This document shows positions 23,290 through 60,653 of a DNA stretch of 63,027 nucleotides, piece by piece. The notes under the pieces were generated by a model that saw nothing but the letters and a program-made list of their open reading frames with translations, had not been told where the DNA came from and did no database searches. The stretch is from Dialister succinatiphilus YIT 11850. Its GTDB lineage: Bacteria; Bacillota; Negativicutes; Veillonellales; Dialisteraceae. The stretch covers positions 329,498 through 392,524 of the forward strand of contig NZ_JH591188.1 in NCBI RefSeq assembly GCF_000242435.1, given 5' to 3'. A program made the position numbers and the translations under genes. Position 1 is the first letter of the stretch, and each line of letters begins with the position of its first letter.

Positions 23290-23295
23290 GGCATG

Positions 23296-23343
23296 AAAAA
23301 AGACTGTGAAGAAATGATTTCCATTTTTTCACAGTCTTTTTTT
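23296..23343. terminator. Bidirectional terminator
   Basis: AAAAAAGACTGTGAA pairs with TTCACAGTCTTTTTT around GAAATGATTTCCATTT. Almost the same apex recurs in the terminator at 54111-54158 and partly at 57450-57496. Confidence 0.92.
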
Positions 23344-24010
23344 ATGTTCTGGCAGGTCTCCGCTTTCTCTGCCTGAAAAACTTCTGTACATAATAGGCCC
23401 CTGTCGCATAGAGGGACATAATCAGAAGATGGCCGAATGTGAAAGTCCAGAGGGTCACGGGGATGCTTCGGGCATTGGGAATGCGGAGAAGAAGGAGCCG
23501 GCTCCCCAGGCTGTAGTAAAAGGAGAAATAAATGCCACCGGCGGTGAGAAGAATGACAAGCACTTTGTAGAGAATGGCGCGATGGGGGATTTTAGAAAAT
23601 CCCATTCCCTTCTCCAGCCGGGGAAGAATGGCGCTCCAGTGAAGTCCCAGATGGAATCCCAGGGCAATGACCATGACATAGCCGGCCACATGATGAATCT
23701 GGTGAGCCAAGAGAGGGGCTTTCTGCATTCCTGTGGGGAGGGTATGGGATATCATAAACCCGCTTGCCATGACGGCGGCAAAGGAACCAAGAAGCAGCAG
23801 GTCTGCGAGGAAGGTCAGTTTCCTGTCCGTGTTCCATCGGCCCCGGGTAAGGGAAGCATACCACTGCCTGTTAAACCAGGTGTGAAGAAGAAAAAGAAGA
23901 AAGAAAACAAGGGCCAGCGTTTCATGGCCGAAATTCCGGACCAGCCGGTAATCCAGAAGGACAAGGAAGGAAATCAGCATTCCCAGGTCCACAGTCAGAC
24001 GTTTGTTCAT
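23342..24010 (-). CDS. DUF4405/cytochrome b561-like membrane protein
   Basis: 222 residues with about five or six transmembrane spans and several membrane histidines (LLFLLHTWFN, HQIHHVAGYVMVIALGFHLGLHW), as in DUF4405 and b561-type heme proteins. Paired histidines about 14-17 residues apart in neighbouring helices would suit b-type heme. I chose ATG 24010 because GGAGG lies at 24016-24020; further upstream starts have no ribosome site. The C-terminus is strongly basic. Possible role in electron transfer at the membrane; partner not visible here. Confidence 0.75.
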   Translation of the reverse strand: MNKRLTVDLGMLISFLVLLDYRLVRNFGHETLALVFFLLFLLHTWFNRQWYASLTRGRWNTDRKLTFLADLLLLGSFAAVMASGFMISHTLPTGMQKAPLLAHQIHHVAGYVMVIALGFHLGLHWSAILPRLEKGMGFSKIPHRAILYKVLVILLTAGGIYFSFYYSLGSRLLLLRIPNARSIPVTLWTFTFGHLLIMSLYATGAYYVQKFFRQRKRRPART

Positions 24011-25491: not shown

Positions 25492-26007
25492 CGGGCGGCA
25501 TCCGGCGGCGGGTTAGTTCTTTTCCTGATTCATATATGATTTTGACGAAACCCATAAGTTTCAATACACAGGTCGTCTAAGTATATAAATAGACATATCT
25601 CCATTAAATTCACGTCAATTAATAGAAACATCTGTAAACATGGAGTTATAGGTCACGCAATTCATAATTTGTCTAATAGGAATTATCTATAACGGGTACA
25701 AGGGAATTTGTAAGGCAAATAGTACATTTTTGGGGTTTTCATGAGGAAAAGTGTGTTATAATAATACTGGTGATTGAATGAACCAAAATGCAGTCAGCAA
25801 AATCTTACGATTGGAGGGTTTGGTCTTGTGATTATAGTATTACACTTTACGGGCATACATAATCTTAAGATAAACTCATACCACAAGGATTAGGCGACTG
25901 TTTTTTTACGGGTAAAAAGTTCTGCGGCAATGCTGAAGCGAGTAATCAGGTTTTGCGGCTGCGGACTTTTATATAATTTATTTTTCATATTTGGGAGGAT
26001 GATAGTA
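25492..26007 (+). other. AT-rich leader region before the CoA transferase gene
   Basis: About 500 bp without a gene. TATAAT occurs at 25757-25762 (after TTTTCATGAGG) and again at 25972-25977, neither with a good -35 at 17 bp. The base composition drops sharply from the GC-rich neighbours. No recognisable riboswitch; the long leader may hold regulation I cannot read. Confidence 0.4.
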
Positions 26008-27555
26008 ATGATCGACACCAATGATAGTGAATTCCTTAGCAGAATTGAAGACAAAGGTCTTCTCTCCAAGGTATGCGATGCCAAGACTGCAGCAAAAATG
26101 TTCAATCCTGGCGATATCATCGGTATTTCCGGATTTACCCCCTGCGGCTATCCGAAGATTACAATGCATGAACTCGCAGAACGCATGAAAGAAACTCCAT
26201 TCCAGGTTGATATCTGGACCGGCGCTTCCACCGGTTCCCAGATCGATACCGAACTGGTTGCTGTAAACGGCATCAGAAACCGTATGCCTTATCAGACCAA
26301 TGCCAACCTGAGAAAAGCTATCAATGCAGGCAAGGTAAACTACTACGATCTGCACCTGTCCCATGTTGCACAGCAGGTACGTGCCGGCTTCTTCACCAAC
26401 GTGAAGGGTGAACACGTAACAGGCCCGGATTTTGCAGTAGTTGAAGTCTGCAAGATCGGACCGAACGGCGAACTTTATCCGACAACCGCTATCGGCAACT
26501 CTCCGGTATATGTTGACACTGCAAAGAAAGTCATTGTAGAAGTCAACACCACCCAGCCGCTGGACCTGGTAGGCATGGCTGATATTTACATGCGTAAGAA
26601 TCCGCCATTCTGTGAACCAATTCCGATTCTCCATGCAGGCGACCGCGTAGGCACCCCGTACATCCCCTGCGATCCCTCCAAGATCGTTGCCATCGTTCCA
26701 TGCGATATGCCAGATGTAACCCGTGCACTGGCTCCGCTGGATGATGACGCAGAAGCTATGGGCAACAACCTGGTAGACTTCCTGAAGAATGAAGTGAAAC
26801 ACGGAAGACTTCCGGAAAACCTCCTGCCTCTGCAGTCCGGCGTAGGCAACGTAGCAAACGCAGTTATCCACGGCCTCGTTGAATCTGATTTCCAGAACCT
26901 TTCCGTATACACCGAAGTTATTCAGGATGGCATGGTCGACCTGATTGATAAAGACAAGATCGACATGATTTCCGGTACTTCCCTGTCCCCATCCCCGGAT
27001 GGACTGAAACGCTTCTATGCAAACATTCAGAAGTACAACAAGAAGATCGTTCTTCGTCCGCAGGAAATTTCCAACAACGGTGAAGTTGTTCGTCGTATCG
27101 GCGTTATCGGCATGAACACCGCTCTGGAAATGGATATTTACGGTCATGTAAACTCCACCCATGTAACAGGCACCAAGCTGATGAACGGTATCGGTGGTTC
27201 CGGCGACTTCGCCCGCAACGCATTCCTGTCCTGCTTCTTCTGCCACAGCACCACAAAGGGCGGCAAGATTTCCGCTGTTGTTCCGATGTGCTCCCATGTT
27301 GACCACACCGAACATGATACCCATGTATTCATTTCCGAACAGGGCGTTGCAGATGTTCGCGGCCTGACCCCGAAGGAAAGAGCAAAGGTTATTATCAACA
27401 ACGTTGCTCATCCGTCCTTCAGAGATCAGCTCATGGACTACTACGAAAGAGCATGCGCTGCCTGCGGCAACAGCCAGACCCCGCATCTGCTTAAAGAAGC
27501 TTTCAAATTCCATGAAAGCCTGGCAGAAACCGGAGATATGCATTTCAAGAAATAA
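26008..27555 (+). CDS. Succinate/propionate CoA transferase (acetyl-CoA hydrolase/transferase family)
   Basis: 515 residues. Family I-type CoA transferase moving CoA between succinate and propionyl-CoA (or acetate). GISGFTPCGYPK near the N-terminus, the active-site Glu303 in YTEVIQDG, and the CoA-binding region NSTHVTGTKLMNGIGGSGDF are present; related enzymes are Cat1 of Clostridium kluyveri and E. coli ScpC. I chose ATG 26008 because GGGAGG lies at 25993-25998; an ATG at 25999 overlaps that site. Together with the mutase and decarboxylase genes just downstream it would close a succinate-to-propionate cycle: succinate is activated as propionate is released. Confidence 0.92.
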   Translation: MIDTNDSEFLSRIEDKGLLSKVCDAKTAAKMFNPGDIIGISGFTPCGYPKITMHELAERMKETPFQVDIWTGASTGSQIDTELVAVNGIRNRMPYQTNANLRKAINAGKVNYYDLHLSHVAQQVRAGFFTNVKGEHVTGPDFAVVEVCKIGPNGELYPTTAIGNSPVYVDTAKKVIVEVNTTQPLDLVGMADIYMRKNPPFCEPIPILHAGDRVGTPYIPCDPSKIVAIVPCDMPDVTRALAPLDDDAEAMGNNLVDFLKNEVKHGRLPENLLPLQSGVGNVANAVIHGLVESDFQNLSVYTEVIQDGMVDLIDKDKIDMISGTSLSPSPDGLKRFYANIQKYNKKIVLRPQEISNNGEVVRRIGVIGMNTALEMDIYGHVNSTHVTGTKLMNGIGGSGDFARNAFLSCFFCHSTTKGGKISAVVPMCSHVDHTEHDTHVFISEQGVADVRGLTPKERAKVIINNVAHPSFRDQLMDYYERACAACGNSQTPHLLKEAFKFHESLAETGDMHFKK

Positions 27556-27574: not shown

Positions 27575-27602
27575 TTTACAAATAATCCAAATATTGTATA
27601 AT
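27575..27602 (+). promoter_or_regulatory. Promoter of the split methylmalonyl-CoA mutase operon
   Basis: TTTACA (27575-27580), 16 bp, TATAAT (27597-27602). It would start a leader of about 228 nt before ATG 27836. Confidence 0.75.
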
Positions 27603-27607
27603 TACCT

Positions 27608-27820
27608 ATGGTGATAGCTGTCTAAGACAGTGTCATATACATGGGTCTCGCAAGAGTCCGAAAGCTGCTGCAAGAAGATTCAAACGATCGCTGCGGCAGC
27701 GAAAGGCTTTGCGGAACCCTGACGGAAGACGTCCCTCACAGGAGAACAAGAAGAGCACAAAGCCACGGTTTCCCGGAAAAGGGGATACACTTCCAGATAG
27801 TTACATACTTACTTTTTTAG
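27608..27820 (+). ncRNA. Structured mRNA leader of unknown class (candidate riboswitch)
   Basis: Several stems fit an ordered RNA. GCTGTC-TAA-GACAGT lies near 27617-27631. GGGTCTC-GCAA-GAGTCC has a GNRA-type loop near 27643-27659. GCTGCTGC (27664-27671) pairs with GCGGCAGC (27693-27700) with one U-G. GACG-GAAGA-CGTC lies at 27721-27733. CCC-GGAAAA-GGGG lies near 27772-27784. It has a promoter at one end and the mutase ribosome site at the other. I do not recognise cobalamin, SAM, c-di-GMP, T-box or other common leader cores. The function is inference. Confidence 0.5.
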
Positions 27821-27835
27821 GAGGAAGATGAACTC

Positions 27836-29497
27836 ATGTCTAACGAATCCCTGAAAGCTAAACTTGATGCCTACAATGCAGAATATGCAAAACAGGTTGC
27901 AAAACATCCGGAAAGAGTTGGTCTGAAACATAAGAACCTGTACACACCACTCGATCTTGACGGTTTCGACTATGAAAAAGACCTCGGTTTCCCGGGCGAA
28001 TATCCATATACCCGTGGCGTACAGCCCACCATGTACCGTGGCCGTCTCTGGACCATGCGTATGTATGCTGGTTTCTCCACCGCTGAAGAATCCAACAAAC
28101 GTTATAAATACCTGATTGCTAACGGCGGCACCGGCCTGTCTGTTGCATTCGACCTTCCGACCCAGATCGGTTATGACTCCGACGACAAAATGTCCGCTGG
28201 CGAAGTTGGTAAGGTAGGCGTAGCTATCGACTCCCTCTACGATATGGAAAGACTGTTCGATGGCATTGATCTTGGCAAAGTTTCCACTTCCATGACCATC
28301 AACGCACCGGCTTCCGTACTGCTGGCTATGTACATTGCAGTAGCTGAAAAACAGGGCGTTCCTGCATCTGCACTTCGCGGCACCATTCAGAACGATATCC
28401 TGAAGGAATACGCAGCTCGCGGCACCTACATTTTCCCGGTTAAACCGTCCATGCGTCTGATTACCGATATCTTCGAATACTGCTCCGCTAACGTACCGAA
28501 GTGGAACACCATTTCCATTTCCGGCTATCATATCCGTGAAGCTGGTTCCACCGCTGCTCAGGAAGTTGCATTCACCATTGCTGATGGTATTGCTTACATC
28601 GAAGCAGCTCTGAAAGCAGGCATGAAGATTGATGAATTCGCTCCACGTCTGTCCTTCTTCTGGAACGCTCACAACAACGTACTCGAAGAAGTTGCTAAAT
28701 TCCGTGCATCCCGTCGTATCTGGGCTAGAATCCTGAAAGAAAGATTCCATGCTGAAAACGCAAAGTCCATGAAACTCCGTTTCCACACCCAGACCGCAGG
28801 CTCCATGCTGACAGCTCAGCAGCCGAACAACAACATCATCCGTGTTGCTCTTCAGACCGCAGCAGCAGTTATGGGCGGCACCCAGTCCCTGCACACCAAC
28901 TCCCGCGATGAAGCACTGGCTCTTCCGACCACTGAATCTGTAACCATCGCTCTTCGTACCCAGCAGATCGTGGCTTACGAATCCGGCCTGGCTGACGTAG
29001 TTGATCCGCTCGGCGGCTCCTACTATGTTGAAGCAATGACCAACGCTATCGAAGAAGAAGTTATGCAGTACATCAAGAAGATTGATGAAATGGGCGGCGC
29101 TGTAGAAGCTATTGATAAAGGCTACATCCAGAAAGAAATTCAGGATTCCGCTTATGCTTGGCAGATGGCTGTTGAATCCGGCGAAAGAACAATCGTTGGC
29201 GTCAACAAGTTCACCATGGAAGAACCGCCGGTTACCGGCCTGCTGAAGATTGATGCTTCCGTTGGCGAAAGAAAGAAAGCTCAGCTCGCTAAAGATAAGG
29301 AAAACCGTGACCAGGCTAAAGTTGCTGAAGAACTGGCTAAACTTGAAAAAGCAGCTCAGACTCCGGCTGAAGGTCCAGATCATGTTAACCTTATGCCAGT
29401 CATCCTCGACTGCGTACGTGCATACTGCACCGAAGGCGAAATCTGCGGCGTTCTCCGTAAAGTATTCGGCGAATACAAACCGCACAACACCCTTTAA
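27836..29497 (+). CDS. Methylmalonyl-CoA mutase, catalytic (large) subunit of the split type
   Basis: 553 residues. This is the TIM-barrel half of a B12-dependent mutase interconverting succinyl-CoA and (R)-methylmalonyl-CoA. [12 protein letters not shown] and GFSTAEESN match the CoA-binding barrel start, followed by [18 protein letters not shown]. Tyr in TMY and Arg in AARGTYIFP, the residues separating methylmalonyl- from isobutyryl-CoA mutases, are both of the methylmalonyl kind. The cobalamin domain is absent and supplied by the next gene. ATG 27836 follows AGGAGG by about 11 bases. Codon use is even and biased, suggesting high expression. Confidence 0.95.
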
Positions 29498-29561: not shown

Positions 29562-29960
29562 ATGGCAGACAAACGTATCAGAGTACTCGTAGCTAAACCG
29601 GGTCTTGATGGACACGATCGTGGTGCAAAAGTTATTGCCCGTGCACTTCGCGACGCAGGCATGGAAGTTATTTACACCGGTCTTCGTCAGACCGTTGAAC
29701 AGATTGTTGAAGCAGCAGATGCAGAAGACGTTGATGTAGTAGCTCTGTCCCTGCTCTCCGGCGCTCACAACACCCTTTTCCCGGAAGTTGTAGAAGCACT
29801 GAAAGCTAAAGGAATGGGCGACGTTCTGGTTATCGGCGGCGGCGTAATTCCGGAAGACGATATCCCAGGCCTTGAAAAAGCTGGCGTAAAAGCTATCTTC
29901 ACACCTGGCACCCCAACAAAGAAAGTTATTGACTTCATTAAAGAAAACGTTAAGAAATAA
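29562..29960 (+). CDS. Methylmalonyl-CoA mutase, cobalamin-binding (small) subunit
   Basis: 132 residues, a free-standing B12-binding Rossmann-like domain. The lower ligand His18 sits in LDGHDRG (the DxHxxG motif), with SLLSGAH and [11 protein letters not shown] forming the nucleotide-tail pocket. Together with the 553-residue chain it makes a heteromeric mutase like the archaeal and isobutyryl-type enzymes. GGAGG lies 10 bases before ATG 29562. The alternative, a glutamate-mutase-type S subunit, is less likely because the partner is a methylmalonyl-type barrel. Confidence 0.95.
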
Positions 29961-34198: not shown

Positions 34199-34230
34199 GT
34201 TAAGAAAGGCAACTCTCTGCTTTCTTAATC
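34199..34230 (-). terminator. Terminator of the B12-domain-like gene
   Basis: On the minus strand TTAAGAAAG pairs with CTTTCTTAA across the stop codon. The T run is modest. Confidence 0.6.
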
Positions 34231-34695
34231 ATTTTCATCCTCCATCTGGGCCATGAGGAGGCCAAGCATAGTGAGGCCTGCCTGTTCCAGGGGATAATCC
34301 TTTGGGAAAACAGCGGCTATGCCATAGCGGAAGAGTGTTTCTTTCTCTTTTTCTTCTCCCTGCTGTAAAGCAATAAGGATGTCATCCCTGCCTTGCAGGG
34401 TGAGGGCTCTTTCCAGTTCCACTGTCAGACGGACTCTATGGGGACTGTCGGTACTGAAGTAAATGAAATGGACATCGTTTTCTATGGCATGGCGTGCGGT
34501 GTCTTCCGGGGTTTCCATGGAGCCTACATCCACGTCCCAGCCTCCATCGGCGAAGGTGGTGGCAGCCAGCTTCCTTTCTTCTTTGGAATGGTCTTCTTCC
34601 ATGTCTGCCATGTAGAGACGAGGCCTTCTGCCTTCCATGTCTGCCAATTTTTTTGTCAGTTCTACCGACTTCTGACGTTCCATTTCCTGATTCAT
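34225..34695 (-). CDS. Degenerate B12-binding-domain-like protein, orphan
   Basis: 156 residues. From residue 20 on it aligns without gaps to the C-terminal cobalamin domain of MutB encoded at 37581-39776: MEGRRPRLYMADMEED against [16 protein letters not shown], and FADGGWDVDVGSMETPED against [18 protein letters not shown]. The cobalamin motif is gone: DGHDRG is replaced by DHSKEE, with Ser37 at the ligand His position. The GG of CIGGVIPP becomes LQQGEEKE. It therefore should not bind B12 in the usual way. It is an intact frame with its own promoter, ribosome site and terminator, so not obviously a dead fragment. It is transcribed away from the riboswitch-controlled mutase operon. Confidence 0.85.
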   Translation of the reverse strand: MNQEMERQKSVELTKKLADMEGRRPRLYMADMEEDHSKEERKLAATTFADGGWDVDVGSMETPEDTARHAIENDVHFIYFSTDSPHRVRLTVELERALTLQGRDDILIALQQGEEKEKETLFRYGIAAVFPKDYPLEQAGLTMLGLLMAQMEDEND

Positions 34696-34875: not shown

Positions 34876-34905
34876 GTGGATGTAGTCTTTTGGACAATTT
34901 CACAT

Positions 34906-35060
34906 TTCTGACAGATGCGAAAGCATAAAAGAGAATCCGGTATAAGCCGGAGCGGTCCCGCCACTGTAAGGAGGAGTTCCTGCTCAAAAATGTCACTGGG
35001 GAAACCTGGGAAGGCGAGCAGGAATGAGGAGTCCAAGCCAGGAGAACTATCTGTCAAAGA
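34906..35060 (+). promoter_or_regulatory. Cobalamin (adenosylcobalamin) riboswitch aptamer
   Basis: Hallmarks are present in order. GACAGAT (34910-34916) closes with ATCTGTC (35049-35055) as P1. GCGGTCCCGCCACTGTAAGG contains the invariant GCCACTG at 34960-34966. The B12 box AGTCCAAGCCAGGAGAAC lies at about 35030-35047. The aptamer begins about 25-30 nt after the predicted transcription start. It precedes the mutA-mutB-meaB genes. Confidence 0.95.
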
Positions 35061-35133
35061 ATCACCGTTAGGGAAGCTCGATTTTCAAAATAAATCCTGC
35101 TTCCAGAAACCTGCGAATGATGGGGAGGGGATT

Positions 35134-35184
35134 GGGACATATTGTCCCTCTGACCGGCTGCCATCCATAGGTGCCGGCTTTTTT
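35134..35184 (+). terminator. Expression-platform hairpins of the cobalamin riboswitch
   Basis: GGGAC-ATATT-GTCCC (35134-35148) is followed by CCGGCTGCC paired with GGTGCCGG and TTTTTT (35154-35184), an intrinsic terminator. The pair can act as the transcription-termination platform. Confidence 0.8.
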
Positions 35185-35207
35185 CATGCCAATATACCTT
35201 GAAGGAG

Positions 35208-35285
35208 GTGAAACTCGGGGTCATGGTGGAATTGTCCGGAGAAGTTCTGATACTATCGGAATCTCTGCTTCTCTCATGTTGTTAA
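35208..35285 (+). other. Possible upstream leader ORF
   Basis: A near-perfect Shine-Dalgarno GAAGGAGGTG (35201-35210) lies after the riboswitch terminator but without a gene start 6-9 bases on. A frame from GTG 35208 or ATG 35223 (MVELSGEVLILSES and onward) ends in TAA at 35283-35285, which overlaps the AAAGGAGG of mutA. Coupled translation is possible; evidence is weak because spacing is poor. Confidence 0.35.
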
Positions 35286-35299
35286 AGGAGGATATATTC

Positions 35300-37579
35300 A
35301 TGGATGAACAGAAATCCCAGGAACCGGTAAAACAGCTGACAGATAAAGAGCTTGAAGCGATCCTTAAAAAATCTGAAGGAAAAACGGATTTCCCGGCAGT
35401 TAAATTTGATGAATTCACACCGCCCACATGGGAAGAATGGGTGGATGCCTGCAATGCACTTCTCAAAGGCAAGCCTTTTGATAAACTCATGTATACGAAA
35501 ACTTATGAAGGCATTACGTTCGATCCCATTTACACGCTCCGCACCGGTCCTGTAGCTATGGATAAGGACCTGCCTCTTGATGATTATCCAGGGATGGGTG
35601 ATTATCTCCGGGGGTCCACGGTGAATGGCTATAAGGAAGCGCCCTGGGGCATTGCCCAGGCCTGCGACGAGACGCTGCCTTCCGAAAATAATGAGCTTTT
35701 GAAGCATGAAATCGATAAGGGGTCCACGGTGTATAATGTCCGTCTTGACAGTGCATCCATGGATGGTGTGGATGTGAAGGATGCGGAAAAACCGGGGGAC
35801 ACCGGCGTATCTATTACGACGCTGGAAGACATGGCTCATCTTCTGGATGGCCTTGATCTTAAGACCTATCCTTTCATGATGTACTGCGGACCTTCCGCTG
35901 TCCGCATGATTGCACTGGCAGCTGCTGCATTGAAAGCAAAGGGAAAAGATACCAGTGAACTTCATGGTGTAATCGGTGCCAATCCTTTGGCTCAGCTGGC
36001 AAAGAATGGTACTCTGATCAAGCCGCTCTCTGCCTGCTATGACGACATGGCAGAATCTATCCGCTGGGCCAGGAAGAATGCACCCCATCTTCGTACCATC
36101 ATGGCGAGAAGCGAAGTGTTCTCCAGAGGCGGTGCCAATGCAGTGCAGGAAGTGGCTTATACCTTCGCCATGGCGGTGGAATATATCCGGGAAATGGAAA
36201 AGAGAGGAGTTTCCATTCATGATATAGCCCAGTCCATCAATTTCGGATTCAATGTGGGTAACGTATTCTTTATTGAAATCGCCAAACTCCGGGCTGCCCG
36301 GGAAGTATGGGCCAATATCATGAAGGCCTTCGGCGCTGAAGAAGCAGACAGGAGCTGCCGTATCCATTCCCGTCCCGCTTATTTCTACCGCACCATTTTT
36401 GATGCCGGCGTCAATATGCTTAGAAATACGACAGCCATGTTCTCCGCCGTGGTGGGCGGCGTAGATACCTACGAAAACGAGCCCTATGATGAAACGGTGA
36501 GAAAGGGGGATGAATTCTCCCGCCGTATAGCAAGAAATGCCCATATTATCCTGCAGGAAGAATTCGGCATGCTTCGTCCTATCGACCCTGCCGGCGGTTC
36601 CTGGGCCTTGGAACATCTGACGAAGGAAATGGCTGGAAAAATCTGGAAGGAATTCCAGAAAATCGAGTCCATGGGCGGCTTTACGAAAGCCCTGGAAGCC
36701 GAATATCCGCAGGAACAGATCCTTGATATCCTGAAGCAGCGTTTCAAGGCACTGGATTTCCGCAAAGACCGGGCTGTAGGAAACAACATGTATCCGAACA
36801 TGGCGGAAGAACTCATCGAACCAAGACCGGAAGATACACCGACTCTCAAGAAACAGCTTGTGAAAGGGGTAGAAGATTACAGGAAGGACATGGACAAGGA
36901 GTACCTGGGGAAAAAGCTGGAAGAACTGGAAGCATCTCCGGTTGCCGGAAAGCTGGATAAGGCTATCGAAGCCTTTTCTGCCGGTGCCACCCAGAACGAG
37001 GTCTATAAGGCCATGATTCCGGATGGGGAAGCAGAAAAAGTTCGTCCTATCACGGAACACCGCTGGACAGAACGGTTTGAGCGTCTCCGCTTTGATACGG
37101 AAAATTATAAGAAAGAAACAGGAAAGAATGTGGAAGTCTTCCTGGCCAATATGGGACGTATCCCGCAGCACAAGGCAAGGGCCGATTTTTCCACTTCGTT
37201 CCTGCAGGTAGGCGAATTCAATGTGCATTTGAACAACGGCTTCCAGGATGACGAAGGAAAACCGGGCTCCCGCTGGGATAAATGCGTGGAAGCGCTGAAA
37301 GCTGGCTGTGACGATAAGGGTACGCCCTATGACTGTGCCGTTATCTGCTCCAAGGATGACACCTATCCTGAAGATGTACCGGCTCTGGCTCCCCGGCTGA
37401 AGGAAGTGCTTGGCAAAGGGAAACTGTTCCTGGCAGGAGCTGCACCAAAAGACCTGGAGCAGACATACCGTGATGCCGGTATTGACGATTTCATCAGTGT
37501 GAAGGCAAACTGCTATGAGATCATCCGCAGTCTTCAGAGGGAAAAAGGCATGAAGATTACGGAAGAGGAGGTAAAATAA
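35300..37579 (+). CDS. mutA: Methylmalonyl-CoA mutase small (beta) subunit, MutA type
   Basis: 759 residues. This is the non-catalytic partner in the heterodimeric mutase of the Propionibacterium type. It keeps the barrel-and-Rossmann layout (for example [38 protein letters not shown]) but its C-terminal domain has no DxHxxG, as usual for MutA. I chose ATG 35300 because AAAGGAGG lies upstream at 35284-35291 and the longer frame would begin inside the riboswitch terminator. mutB follows after 1 bp. Somewhat longer than many MutA proteins (about 620-740). Confidence 0.93.
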
Positions 37580-37580
37580 T

Positions 37581-39776
37581 ATGGCAATGAATCCCGATTT
37601 CACAAAACTGGACCTGGAAAATCATCCTTCCTGTGATTACGATGTCTGGAAAACAGGGCTGGAAGAAACGACGGGCAAATCCTACAATGATTTGTACGAC
37701 ACCACCCTGGAGCGTATCCCCGTAGGTCCCCTGTATACCAAAGATATTTATAAAGAATGCAATCATCTGGATTTTATGAGCGGCATTCCTCCGTTCCTGA
37801 GAGGCCCCTACTCCACCATGTATGTATTCCGTCCATGGACAGTACGTCAGTATGCCGGCTTCTCCACAGCCGAAGAATCCAATGCCTTTTATAAGAGAAA
37901 CCTGGCTGCCGGGCAGAAGGGGCTGTCCATTGCATTCGACCTTCCTACCCACCGGGGCTACGATGCGGATAACCCCCGCGTAGTAGGCGATGTGGGCAAG
38001 GCAGGCGTATCGGTATGCTCCATGCTGGACATGAATATCCTCTTTGACGGTATCCCCCTGGACCAGATGTCCGTATCCATGACTATGAATGGCGCCGTGC
38101 TTCCCATCCTGGCTTTCTTCATCTGCGCCGGCATTGAGCAGGGGGTAGACAGGAAAATCCTCCAGGGCACTATCCAGAACGATATCCTGAAGGAATTCAT
38201 GGTCCGCAACACCTACATCTATCCGCCGGCCATGTCCATGCGTATCATCGGCGATATCTTCGAATACACCACCAAGTACATGCCGAAGTTCAATTCCATT
38301 TCCATTTCCGGCTACCACATCCAGGAATGCGGCGCTACCTGCGACCTGGAACTGGGCTATACCCTGGCTGATGGCATGGAATACATCCGCTGCGGTGAAA
38401 AAGCAGGACTGCCGGTGGATGCTTTCGCCAAGCGTCTGTCCTTCTTCTGGGACCAGGGCAAGAACTACTTCATGGAAGTAGCCAAGATGAGGGCTGCCAG
38501 AGTGCTGTGGGCTAAGATTCTGAAAGGCTTTGGCGCCAAAAATCCGAAGTCCATGGCTCTCCGTACCCATTCGCAGACCTCCGGCTGGTCCCTTACCGAA
38601 CAGGATCCCTTCAACAATATCACCAGAACCTGTATGGAAGCCATGTCCGCAGCCCTGGGCCACACCCAGTCCCTGCACACCAACGCCCTGGACGAAGCCA
38701 TCGCGCTGCCTACAGACTTCTCTGCCCGTCTGGCAAGAAATACGCAGCTCTATATCCAGGATGAAACGAAGGTTTGCAAGATTATCGATCCCTGGGGCGG
38801 TTCCTACTATCTGGAATACCTGACCAATGAAATGATTAAACGGTCCTGGGCCCATATCCAGGAAGTGGAATCTCTGGGAGGCATGGCCAAGGCTATTGCC
38901 ACAGGCCTTCCGAAGATGCGTATCGAGGAATGCGCTGCCCGCCGCCAGGCTGACATTGATTCCGGCAGAGAAACCATTGTAGGCCTGAACAAGTATCGTC
39001 TGGCCAAGGAAGACCCGTTGAACGTACTCTCCATTGACAATACCGCCGTACGGAATGCGCAGATTAAACGCCTTGAAAAGCTCCGCTCCATCCGGGATCC
39101 AGAAAAAGTACGCCGGGACCTGGAACACATTACCAAGTGTGCCGAGAGCAGGGACAATGGCAACCTTCTGGACGCTGCCGTACAGGCAGCCCATGACCGC
39201 TGCTCTCTGGGTGAAATTTCCGACGCCGTGGAAAAGGTGTCCGGCCGCTACAACGCCACCATCCATACCGTATCCGGCGTGTATTCCAGCGAATTCCAGG
39301 ATAACGGCCAGTTTGACAAGGCTAAGAAACTGATTGAAGAATTTGATGCACTCGAAGGCCGCCGTCCCCGTATCTTCTTCTGCAAGATGGGTCAGGACGG
39401 TCATGACAGAGGCCAGAAGGTACTGGCATCCTCCTTTGCCGACATGGGCTGGGACGTGGACGTAGGTCCCCTGTTCCAGACACCGGAAGAAGCGGCCCAG
39501 GATGCCGTAGATAACGATGTTCATATTGTTGGCTTCTCCTCTTTGGCTGCAGGACACAAGACACTGCTTCCAGCCCTGGTGGAAGAACTGAAGAAACGGG
39601 GCCGCAGCGATATCCTCGTTTGCATTGGCGGCGTTATCCCACCCCAGGATTACCAGTATCTCTATGACCATGGCGCCACTGCTATCTTTGGACCGGGCAC
39701 CAATATCCCGAAGTGCTGCATCGAACTTCTGCAGATCCTTGTGGACCGTGCCAAAGCCGAAGCCAGGGAAGGATAA
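37581..39776 (+). CDS. mutB: Methylmalonyl-CoA mutase large (alpha) subunit, MutB type
   Basis: 731 residues, the catalytic chain. Substrate barrel: [37 protein letters not shown] and [10 protein letters not shown], with the Tyr and Arg of true methylmalonyl-CoA mutases. The C-terminal cobalamin domain is intact: DGHDRG with ligand His608, then FSSLAAGH and [10 protein letters not shown]. It is a second, independent mutase besides the split enzyme at 27.8-30.0 kb, here behind a cobalamin riboswitch. GGAAGAGGAGG precedes ATG 37581. Confidence 0.97.
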
Positions 39777-39787
39777 GGTAAGTGCTT

Positions 39788-40954
39788 ATGCCTGATAACG
39801 ATGATGACCTGAGACCCAGCTGGGTGCCGAAGGAAAAGAACCCTGAATTTGCCTGTACCGTTATGCGCGGCATTGACAGTGCCGTGAACAGCGTTACCAG
39901 TGCCAAGTATTACCCGAAGGAAAATCTCCGCCGCGTACCGCTTCGGAAGAAAATGAGCGTGGAAGAATATGTGGAAGGCGTGAAAAAGGGGGACCGTATG
40001 ATTCTGGCCAAGGCCATTACCCTCATTGAGAGTAACGCCCCCAAAGACTTCGATAAAGCCCAGCGCGTCCTGCAGGCACTCCTTCCCAGGACAGGACATT
40101 CCCTCCGTATCGGTATCACCGGTGTCCCCGGCGCAGGCAAGAGTACCTTCATCGAAGCCTTCGGGCAGCTTCTCTGTCAGCAGGGCTATAAAGTAGCCGT
40201 GCTGGCGGTGGACCCTACCAGCTCCATCACCGGCGGCTCCATTCTGGGCGATAAGACCAGGATGCAGAAACTGTCCCGGGAACCGAACTGTTTCATCAGG
40301 CCCTCTCCCTCCGGCGGTACCCTGGGAGGCGTGGCCAGGAAGAGCCGTGAAACCATGATGCTCTGCGAAGCGGCAGGCTGTGATGTGATCCTGGTAGAAA
40401 CCGTAGGCGTAGGCCAGTCAGAAACCACAGTCCGTTCCATGGTAGATTTCTTTATGCTGGTGGTTCTTACCGGTGCCGGCGATGACCTTCAGGGCATCAA
40501 GAAAGGCATTATGGAACTGGCCGATGCCATCGTGGTGAACAAGGCCGATGGGGACAATCTGGAAAGAGCTAAGGTCACCCAGGGAGAATACGAACGGATG
40601 GTAGAATTTATCCGCCCCGCTACGGAAGGCTGGAAAACCCATGCCTACCGCTGCTCTGCTCTGCAGAAAACGGGACTTCTGGAATTGTGGGCAGTGATGC
40701 GGGAATTTGAAAAGGTGACGAAAAAATCCGGCGCCTTTGAAAACCGACGCCAGCGCCAGATCATCGCCTGGGTCAAAACCATGATTGACGAGCATCTGCA
40801 CAATCTCTTCTATGAAGACCCTGTCATCAAAGGCAGACTTCCGGAAGTGAGGGCAGCCGTGCTGGCAGGGGTGGTATCACCCAGCCAGGCAGTGGCGGAA
40901 CTGATCAGGACCTTCGATCTTGATCGCGCCGCCGCCCGCCATTTGGATTCATAA
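39788..40954 (+). CDS. meaB: MeaB/ArgK-family GTPase, mutase chaperone (second copy)
   Basis: 388 residues. Same family as the 312-residue protein at 30078 but with an extra N-terminal segment of about 70 residues. Walker A GVPGAGKST, switch VAVDPTSSITGGSILGDKTRM, TVGVGQSETT and NKADGDNLE are present. It is placed after mutB in the riboswitch operon, so it probably serves that mutase. ATG 39788 follows AAGG at 39774-39777; a GTG at 39782 in frame is an alternative. A strong terminator follows. Confidence 0.93.
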   Translation: MPDNDDDLRPSWVPKEKNPEFACTVMRGIDSAVNSVTSAKYYPKENLRRVPLRKKMSVEEYVEGVKKGDRMILAKAITLIESNAPKDFDKAQRVLQALLPRTGHSLRIGITGVPGAGKSTFIEAFGQLLCQQGYKVAVLAVDPTSSITGGSILGDKTRMQKLSREPNCFIRPSPSGGTLGGVARKSRETMMLCEAAGCDVILVETVGVGQSETTVRSMVDFFMLVVLTGAGDDLQGIKKGIMELADAIVVNKADGDNLERAKVTQGEYERMVEFIRPATEGWKTHAYRCSALQKTGLLELWAVMREFEKVTKKSGAFENRRQRQIIAWVKTMIDEHLHNLFYEDPVIKGRLPEVRAAVLAGVVSPSQAVAELIRTFDLDRAAARHLDS

Positions 40955-60133: not shown

Positions 60134-60294
60134 TATGGGGGCTGGGTAGAAAGGATGCCTGAGTATTTGGCCTTCTTCCTCTGGAAGAAGGTGGCGCCGG
60201 ATGATAGCAGGCTTTTTGTAGAAAAGCCGAGGCCCTGCAGGGGCCTGGCATGGCTCATTTTCCATCATAAAATCAGCCGGTTCATTATCCCAAT

Positions 60295-60641
60295 CAAAAA
60301 CCCCCGTCCTCTAATAAGAGGGCGGGGGTTTTCTATTTAGATTTCTTTCATTGATTCAAGACAACACGAAAAGCCCGAAAGAGCTAGGCCCGACGGATAG
60401 AAGACAGATGCGCCAATCTTCTACCGCTCCATCATGACGATGGCCTCTTTCAGGCTGTTCGCTTAGACCTCGGAATGAACCAAGGCGCCTAATCAGGAAA
60501 ATGCAAGAAAAACTCATAACGCATCGAACGGACCGAAGCCCGGAGCTCTTATGGTTTCATCCATGCGAGATGGCTTGCAGCCGGACCAGGAACCGGGTAT
60601 TTTTTCGTGGCCACTCCCCGGACCTTGTCCAAGCTCTCATC
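60295..60641 (-). ncRNA. Candidate structured noncoding RNA, class unknown
   Basis: On the minus strand a -10 TATAAT (60653-60648) precedes a segment of about 345 nt that ends in a GC-rich stem and T run (60334-60296). Inside, CGGGC-UUCG-GUCCG (near 60528-60541), CCUUGG-UUCAUU-CCGAGG (near 60468-60485), CCGGG with CCCGG, and UAGAAGA with UCUUCUA form stems. AGAGCU near the 5' end pairs with AGCUCU near the 3' end. Two stems keep G-U pairs only on the minus strand, which indicates that strand is transcribed. It does not show tmRNA, RNase P, SRP or 6S hallmarks. Confidence 0.55.
60296..60334. terminator. Bidirectional terminator
   Basis: AAAAACCCCCG-CCTCT-AATA-AGAGG-CGGGGGTTTT, T runs on both strands. 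It would end the minus-strand RNA. Confidence 0.88.
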
Positions 60642-60653
60642 TATGCTTATTAT

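Follow-up and report, generated by a model that had tools for sequence, protein, structure and literature searches.

Upstream of the split methylmalonyl-CoA mutase operon of Dialister succinatiphilus YIT 11850 lies a leader RNA that is real, covarying, specific to the Dialister family and without a relative in Rfam, and in this article I will argue, tentatively, that a factor acting in trans at two similar hairpin tips could control the mutase message. Dialister inhabits the gut and the mouth, and if the leader is a conserved RNA switch, it would show how the Dialister operon for succinate-to-propionate decarboxylation is regulated; it would also add an RNA family, seen here in one bacterial family, of a kind that could escape broad motif surveys with ease, and with its two similar tips and single operon it makes a compact system for testing what binds. 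The leader had been singled out in an earlier note, made from the letters of the window (the whole stretch of 63,027 nucleotides analyzed here) as an unassigned structured leader and possible metabolite riboswitch. The two checks that the note set, covariation and the absence of an Rfam match, both come out for the candidate, and it stands as a structured, covarying RNA of no known family; the metabolite riboswitch is so far unsupported.

The leader and its operon

The leader starts a few bases past a promoter and ends at an AGGAGG 11 bases from the ATG at 27836, in agreement with the earlier description of some 210 nt between a strong promoter and a ribosome site. The features of the locus are:

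25930-27555, plus strand: succinate/acetate CoA-transferase (TIGR03458, 708.7 bits), the gene upstream of the leader
27575-27602, plus strand: promoter TTTACA-16-TATAAT, 11 of 12 matches, directly 5' of the leader
27608-27817, plus strand: whole structured leader (P1, P2, P3, P4), from covariance model R1 and folds
27819-27824, plus strand: Shine-Dalgarno AGGAGG
27836-29497, plus strand: catalytic subunit of the split methylmalonyl-CoA mutase (TIGR00641, 801 bits; PF01642)
29562-29960, plus strand: B12-binding subunit of the mutase (TIGR00640; PF02310)

By profile matches, the operon 3' of the leader encodes the split mutase, MeaB, an epimerase and methylmalonyl-CoA decarboxylase subunits. The promoter recurs at equal spacing in all four leader-bearing Dialister genomes (the window genome, G003, G004 and G001), placing the element at the start of the transcript, and no gene-strand promoter was found before the leader in the four other genomes, G007, G008, G010 and G011 (together the loci L035, L037, L038 and L062), where the element is intercistronic. 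Transcription attenuation was considered and rejected, there being no gene-strand terminator-like site within any of the eight leaders described below; since the element sits at a transcript start or between cistrons and lacks a terminator, control after initiation is more likely than attenuation.

No match to known families, and a weak signal from folding energy

When scanned against the 4227 families of Rfam 15, the leader had no match at gathering scores, and the matches that appear at E up to 10 (RMST_1, mir-132, Ms_IGR-8) are at chance level. The cobalamin riboswitch RF00174 was not among them at either setting, although the same scan finds a copy at 34896-35068, and the earlier claim that the leader lacks a cobalamin aptamer is thereby borne out. 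The leader-bearing loci of seven relatives are equally devoid of cobalamin riboswitches and of other Rfam family matches, apart from one sub-threshold viral element outside the leader that I take as chance, and searches of plasmids, phages and viral contigs turned up no match. Nor is the RNA described in the openly available literature searched, including passages of PMC11109978, PMC8632094, PMC9788692, PMC2864571 and PMC9600662.

Could this be an ordinary spacer that folds by chance and is conserved by descent only? The leader folds with z = -3.1 and -3.24 against shuffles in two runs, and seven of the eight family leaders reach z of -2.9 to -4.4 (G008, -1.4); however, values near -3 are common in the window, where six of the 23 gaps of at least 120 nt between predicted ORFs have z of -3 or lower, this leader included, and because five of the 22 other gaps do as well, fold energy by itself is weak evidence of structure. 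What speaks against the spacer is that its letters have diverged past the reach of BLASTN while its pairs stay, as laid out in the next two sections; the comparison of models R1 and R3 and the covariation of P4 largely refute this reading, which I regard as very improbable. Two other gaps in the window, 23290-23428 and 60252-60649, lie far below their shuffles (z -6.4 and -5.7) and are candidates for terminators or other RNAs.

Structure finds relatives that sequence misses

The Dialister family was sampled with 12 genomes, eight of which carry the split mutase; the leader occurs in all eight and in none of the four others (where R1 has no match below E 5). The eight leaders measure 188-217 nt and lie downstream of the CoA-transferase stop and upstream of the ribosome site of the mutase, and BLASTN matches only two of them at full length, G003 (82%) and G004 (74%). 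R1, a covariance model built from the leaders of G000 (the window genome), G003 and G004, finds the five held-out leaders at full length (G001 41.9 bits, G008 37.5, G007 37.3, G011 36.5, G010 34.0), with E of 1e-7 to 6e-10 in 172 kb, where the next matches reach at most 12.1 bits and owe these chiefly to the U-rich ribosome site. Judged from those next matches, about 12 of the bits of R1 come from the ribosome site and the remainder from P1 and the P3/P4 part. By comparison R3, for which the pairs were left out of the R1 alignment, finds one of the five held-out leaders, G001, and only its 3' half at 16.1 bits; the structure of the leader thus detects relatives that sequence alone misses.

Farther afield, an R1 search of 300 genomes at class level under strict filters gave no convincing further member, an absence limited by the fact that R1 under the stricter whole-genome filters also misses the leaders of G007, G008, G010 and G011. 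Weak matches elsewhere (G051, G057, G001:C62:49081 and others) were set aside: L138 and L124 lie within open frames, L128 carries a P4-like stretch, and the others that were aligned match mainly at the U-rich ribosome-site end. The Veillonella and Selenomonadaceae mutase genes examined are without a leader of this kind. A Candidatus Avacidaminococcus locus (L094) has a long unaligned spacer directly before the mutase start, with no R1 or R2 match (R2 is the P4 model introduced below), and in a neighboring family, f2, a different spacer of 110-129 nt precedes the mutase (L039, L040, L041, L043; z -1.9 to -3.8), composed of one hairpin with an AxAGA..CGG loop, loosely similar by eye, and a second hairpin that is GCAA-capped in three of the four. 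R2 finds no match in the f2 spacers of L039, L040 and L043, and I claim no kinship; the f2 spacer is possibly an independent or very diverged leader.

Architecture and covariation

The comparison of the leaders indicates one architecture kept in eight genomes, in which a 5' hairpin (P1) is followed by the long P2 arm and then by P3, a stem that encloses the P4 hairpin:

27612-27635, plus strand: P1, 5' hairpin UGAU..CUGUC-UAA-GACAG..GUCA, shared by all eight leaders (by eye); helix 1 of the model alignment
27636-27642, plus strand: AU-rich linker with UAUA, 3' of P1; it resembles UCAUAUA in all eight leaders (UCAUACA in G004)
27643-27719, plus strand: P2 long arm, including the so-called GCAA hairpin, from predicted folds, leader comparison and model-alignment helices 2 and 3
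27672-27692, plus strand: P2 tip, AAGAAGA - inner loop - CGCU; the P4 model R2 matches its homologues in G001 and G004
27724-27728, plus strand: P3a 5' strand GGAAG, pairing with 27790-27794 (model-alignment helix 4)
27741-27774, plus strand: P4 hairpin, stem - AAGAAGA (27748-27754) - GC ACAAA GC - CACG - stem
27790-27794, plus strand: 3' strand of P3a, CUUCC, with partial complementarity to the Shine-Dalgarno

P1 has the general form UGAU - inner loop - CUGCC/GGCAG - AUCA, then UAUA; most predicted folds leave this linker unpaired. I rejected a DNA operator at P1, since the hairpin varies in length and is several pairs longer in G001. The P2 arm varies in sequence by genus and is poorly aligned outside Dialister. 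Within it, the stem of 8 bp around a 21-nt loop that the earlier note described is present at 27664-27700; the GCAA-capped hairpin is not confirmed as a unit, the predicted fold pairing its CGCAA with UUGCG across the long arm, and by eye G004 keeps the CGCAA/UUGCG pairing intact with the local CUC-GCAA-GAG stem broken. The "GCAA hairpin" more likely belongs to the P2 arm. The P3a strands change letters from genome to genome: GGAAG/CUUCC (G000), GGAAAC/GUUUCC (G003), GGAAA/UUUCC (G004), GAAGG/CCUUC (G001), GGGAUUU/AAAUCCC (G007) and GGAGC/GCUCC (G008, G010, G011). In P4, inside P3, a stem leads to (N)AGAAGA; next come an inner hairpin of two pairs, whose loop is rich in A, and CGCN (CACG in G000), before the stem is completed on its 3' side. 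The inner pairs are GC/GC, AC/GU or CA/UG, with one pair kept in G007 and a longer loop needed in G004. The AGAAGA in P4 is the sole invariant six-base block outside the ribosome site (8 of 8 leaders, in an alignment whose G007 row is cut at the 5' end).

In a MAFFT alignment, the six pairs of P4 are formed in 89.6% of 48 cells versus 64.1% in shuffles, with changes on both sides in five of the six, and slid versions of the structure are 21-52% paired; the covariation score was reached by none of 500 shuffles and the count of double-change pairs by 74 of 500. The structure was picked by eye, and the test is limited by its eight sequences, which are related and include three close ones. The model-fitted alignment of the whole leader, which is biased towards structure, has 91.9% of cells paired and double changes in 29 of 41 pairs. 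The comparison of genomes is what decides the matter, and from it I conclude that the leader is a conserved structured RNA with pairs kept by compensatory change.

Twin tips and what may bind them

The P2 and P4 tips have a purine loop, (N)AGAAGA opposite CGCN, in common, and it is clear in five of the eight leaders. Written as A[GT]AAGA followed by CG[CG] within 6-14 bases, the motif occurs at both P2 and P4 in G000, G003, G004, G001 and G007, two-site counts matched by 0 to 0.35% of 2000 dinucleotide shuffles (the G001 count includes an overlapping copy). It occurs once in G008, G010 and G011, a count matched by 2.5 to 4.3% of shuffles, and the P2 tips of these three lack the AGAAGA block. 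R2, a covariance model of P4 run unfiltered over 53 kb, has as its best matches outside P4 the P2 tips of G001 (18.5 bits, E 0.008) and G004 (18.0 bits, E 0.012); for G007 and G000 the P2 tip is matched only at E 2.1 and 6.9, and for G003, G008, G010 and G011 it is unmatched.

An R2 search of the 12 family genomes recovers all eight copies of P4, none with an E above 2e-5; the next matches reach 22.4 bits at most, and no second gene has a convincing copy of the element. Of 14 weak loci inspected from a longer list, 13 lie in open frames of at least 100 codons on either strand, among them L157, whose open frame is on the opposite strand only and which is terminator-like and follows a stop codon; the remaining one, L158, has no such frame and only 17.8 bits with R2.

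The reading that I favor, and to which I would give somewhat less than an even chance, is of a cis-acting RNA that is specific to a single operon of the Dialister family, and at whose tips a trans-acting factor would set mutase translation or stability, with a riboswitch and a stability element as the main rivals. The two similar tips would form a paired recognition site for one such factor, most simply a dimeric RNA-binding protein and possibly a product of the operon itself; its binding would stabilize P3 against a possible alternative pairing of the P3 3' strand with the Shine-Dalgarno, and in this manner control the message after the start of transcription. What sits at the twin tips would probably be a protein; the twin-site idea is weakened because the P2 tips of G008, G010 and G011 are without the AGAAGA block. 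ANTAR hairpins have six-base loops with fixed A and G, and their targets resemble this leader in carrying two similar hairpin tips; the tips here are instead, by eye, 7-by-4 internal loops with a small inner hairpin.

How the leader could act on expression

The P3a 3' strand is complementary to AGGAGG in all eight leaders, by 4 bp only as scored. The anti-Shine-Dalgarno pairing costs 1 to 8.5 kcal/mol relative to the best fold and has an ensemble probability of at most 0.05, so it is never favored, and P3a is favored (probability of at least 0.6) in five of the eight leaders and low in G000 (0.07), G001 (0.07) and G007 (about 0.2). A translational switch through P3 and the Shine-Dalgarno is possible on these predicted energies.

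The same complementarity would serve as the expression platform of an undescribed riboswitch class whose ligand would be a metabolite of the pathway or a cofactor (succinate, a CoA ester, a corrinoid or biotin), with the two tips as a tandem arrangement. A structured 5' leader before a metabolic operon, with covariation, no Rfam match and Shine-Dalgarno complementarity in every member, speaks for such a riboswitch, as do published candidates before single metabolic genes in the same bacterial class, the gltD and ldh2 motifs (PMC8632094); yet few letters are conserved beyond the two tips, which are themselves copies of a purine loop, the P2 arms differ among genera, no ligand pocket was seen in the leader and no terminator found, the element serves one gene in one family, and the energetics of the switch are weak. 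The proposal of a metabolite riboswitch in the earlier note is so far unsupported, and I consider an undescribed class unlikely; slightly less likely again is its specific form, in which the two AGAAGA tips would read a corrinoid or a metabolite from the succinate-to-propionate pathway for translational control of the split mutase operon in the Dialister family. A new cobalamin class, the other suggestion of that note, is possible with nothing positive for it, an ordinary cobalamin riboswitch preceding the other mutase pair of the genome.

Also doubtful, in my estimation, is an element for processing or stability, in which P1 caps the end, the UAUA linker is cleaved, and P2 and P3 protect the mutase message, so that the CoA-transferase and mutase messages differ in lifetime. 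The position of the element between genes without a recognized promoter in G007, G008, G010 and G011 and at the transcript start in Dialister is consistent with this, as are the mostly unpaired AU-rich linker after P1 and the lack of a gene-strand terminator in the leader; however, stability alone leaves the invariant AGAAGA loop with its covarying flanks, and its near-repeat in P2, unexplained.

Comparable leaders and the second mutase system

Among known systems, RF00174 is alike in being a structured leader before a B12-dependent mutase gene, and differs in that the present leader has no match to its model. The gltD and ldh2 motifs of Negativicutes, compared here by their description (PMC8632094), are also structured leaders before one metabolic gene with a possible switch at the ribosome site, but they precede other genes, and ldh2 is a three-stem junction.

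The standard cobalamin riboswitch at 34896-35068 (plus strand, 94.7 bits), 7 kb downstream of the leader, stands before a second methylmalonyl-CoA mutase, made up of two subunits (35171-37579 and 37581-39776) and itself followed by a GTPase-like ORF (39782-40954) that by eye resembles a second MeaB. Two mutase systems therefore stand side by side in this genome with a recognized B12 switch at one only. Between the two operons, on the opposite strand, a small stand-alone protein (34228-34695, minus strand) resembles a B12-binding domain (PF02310, 20.1 bits, under the cut-off), with a degenerate version of DxHxxG, the cobalamin-binding motif; the protein could be a relic that no longer binds, or else a regulator.
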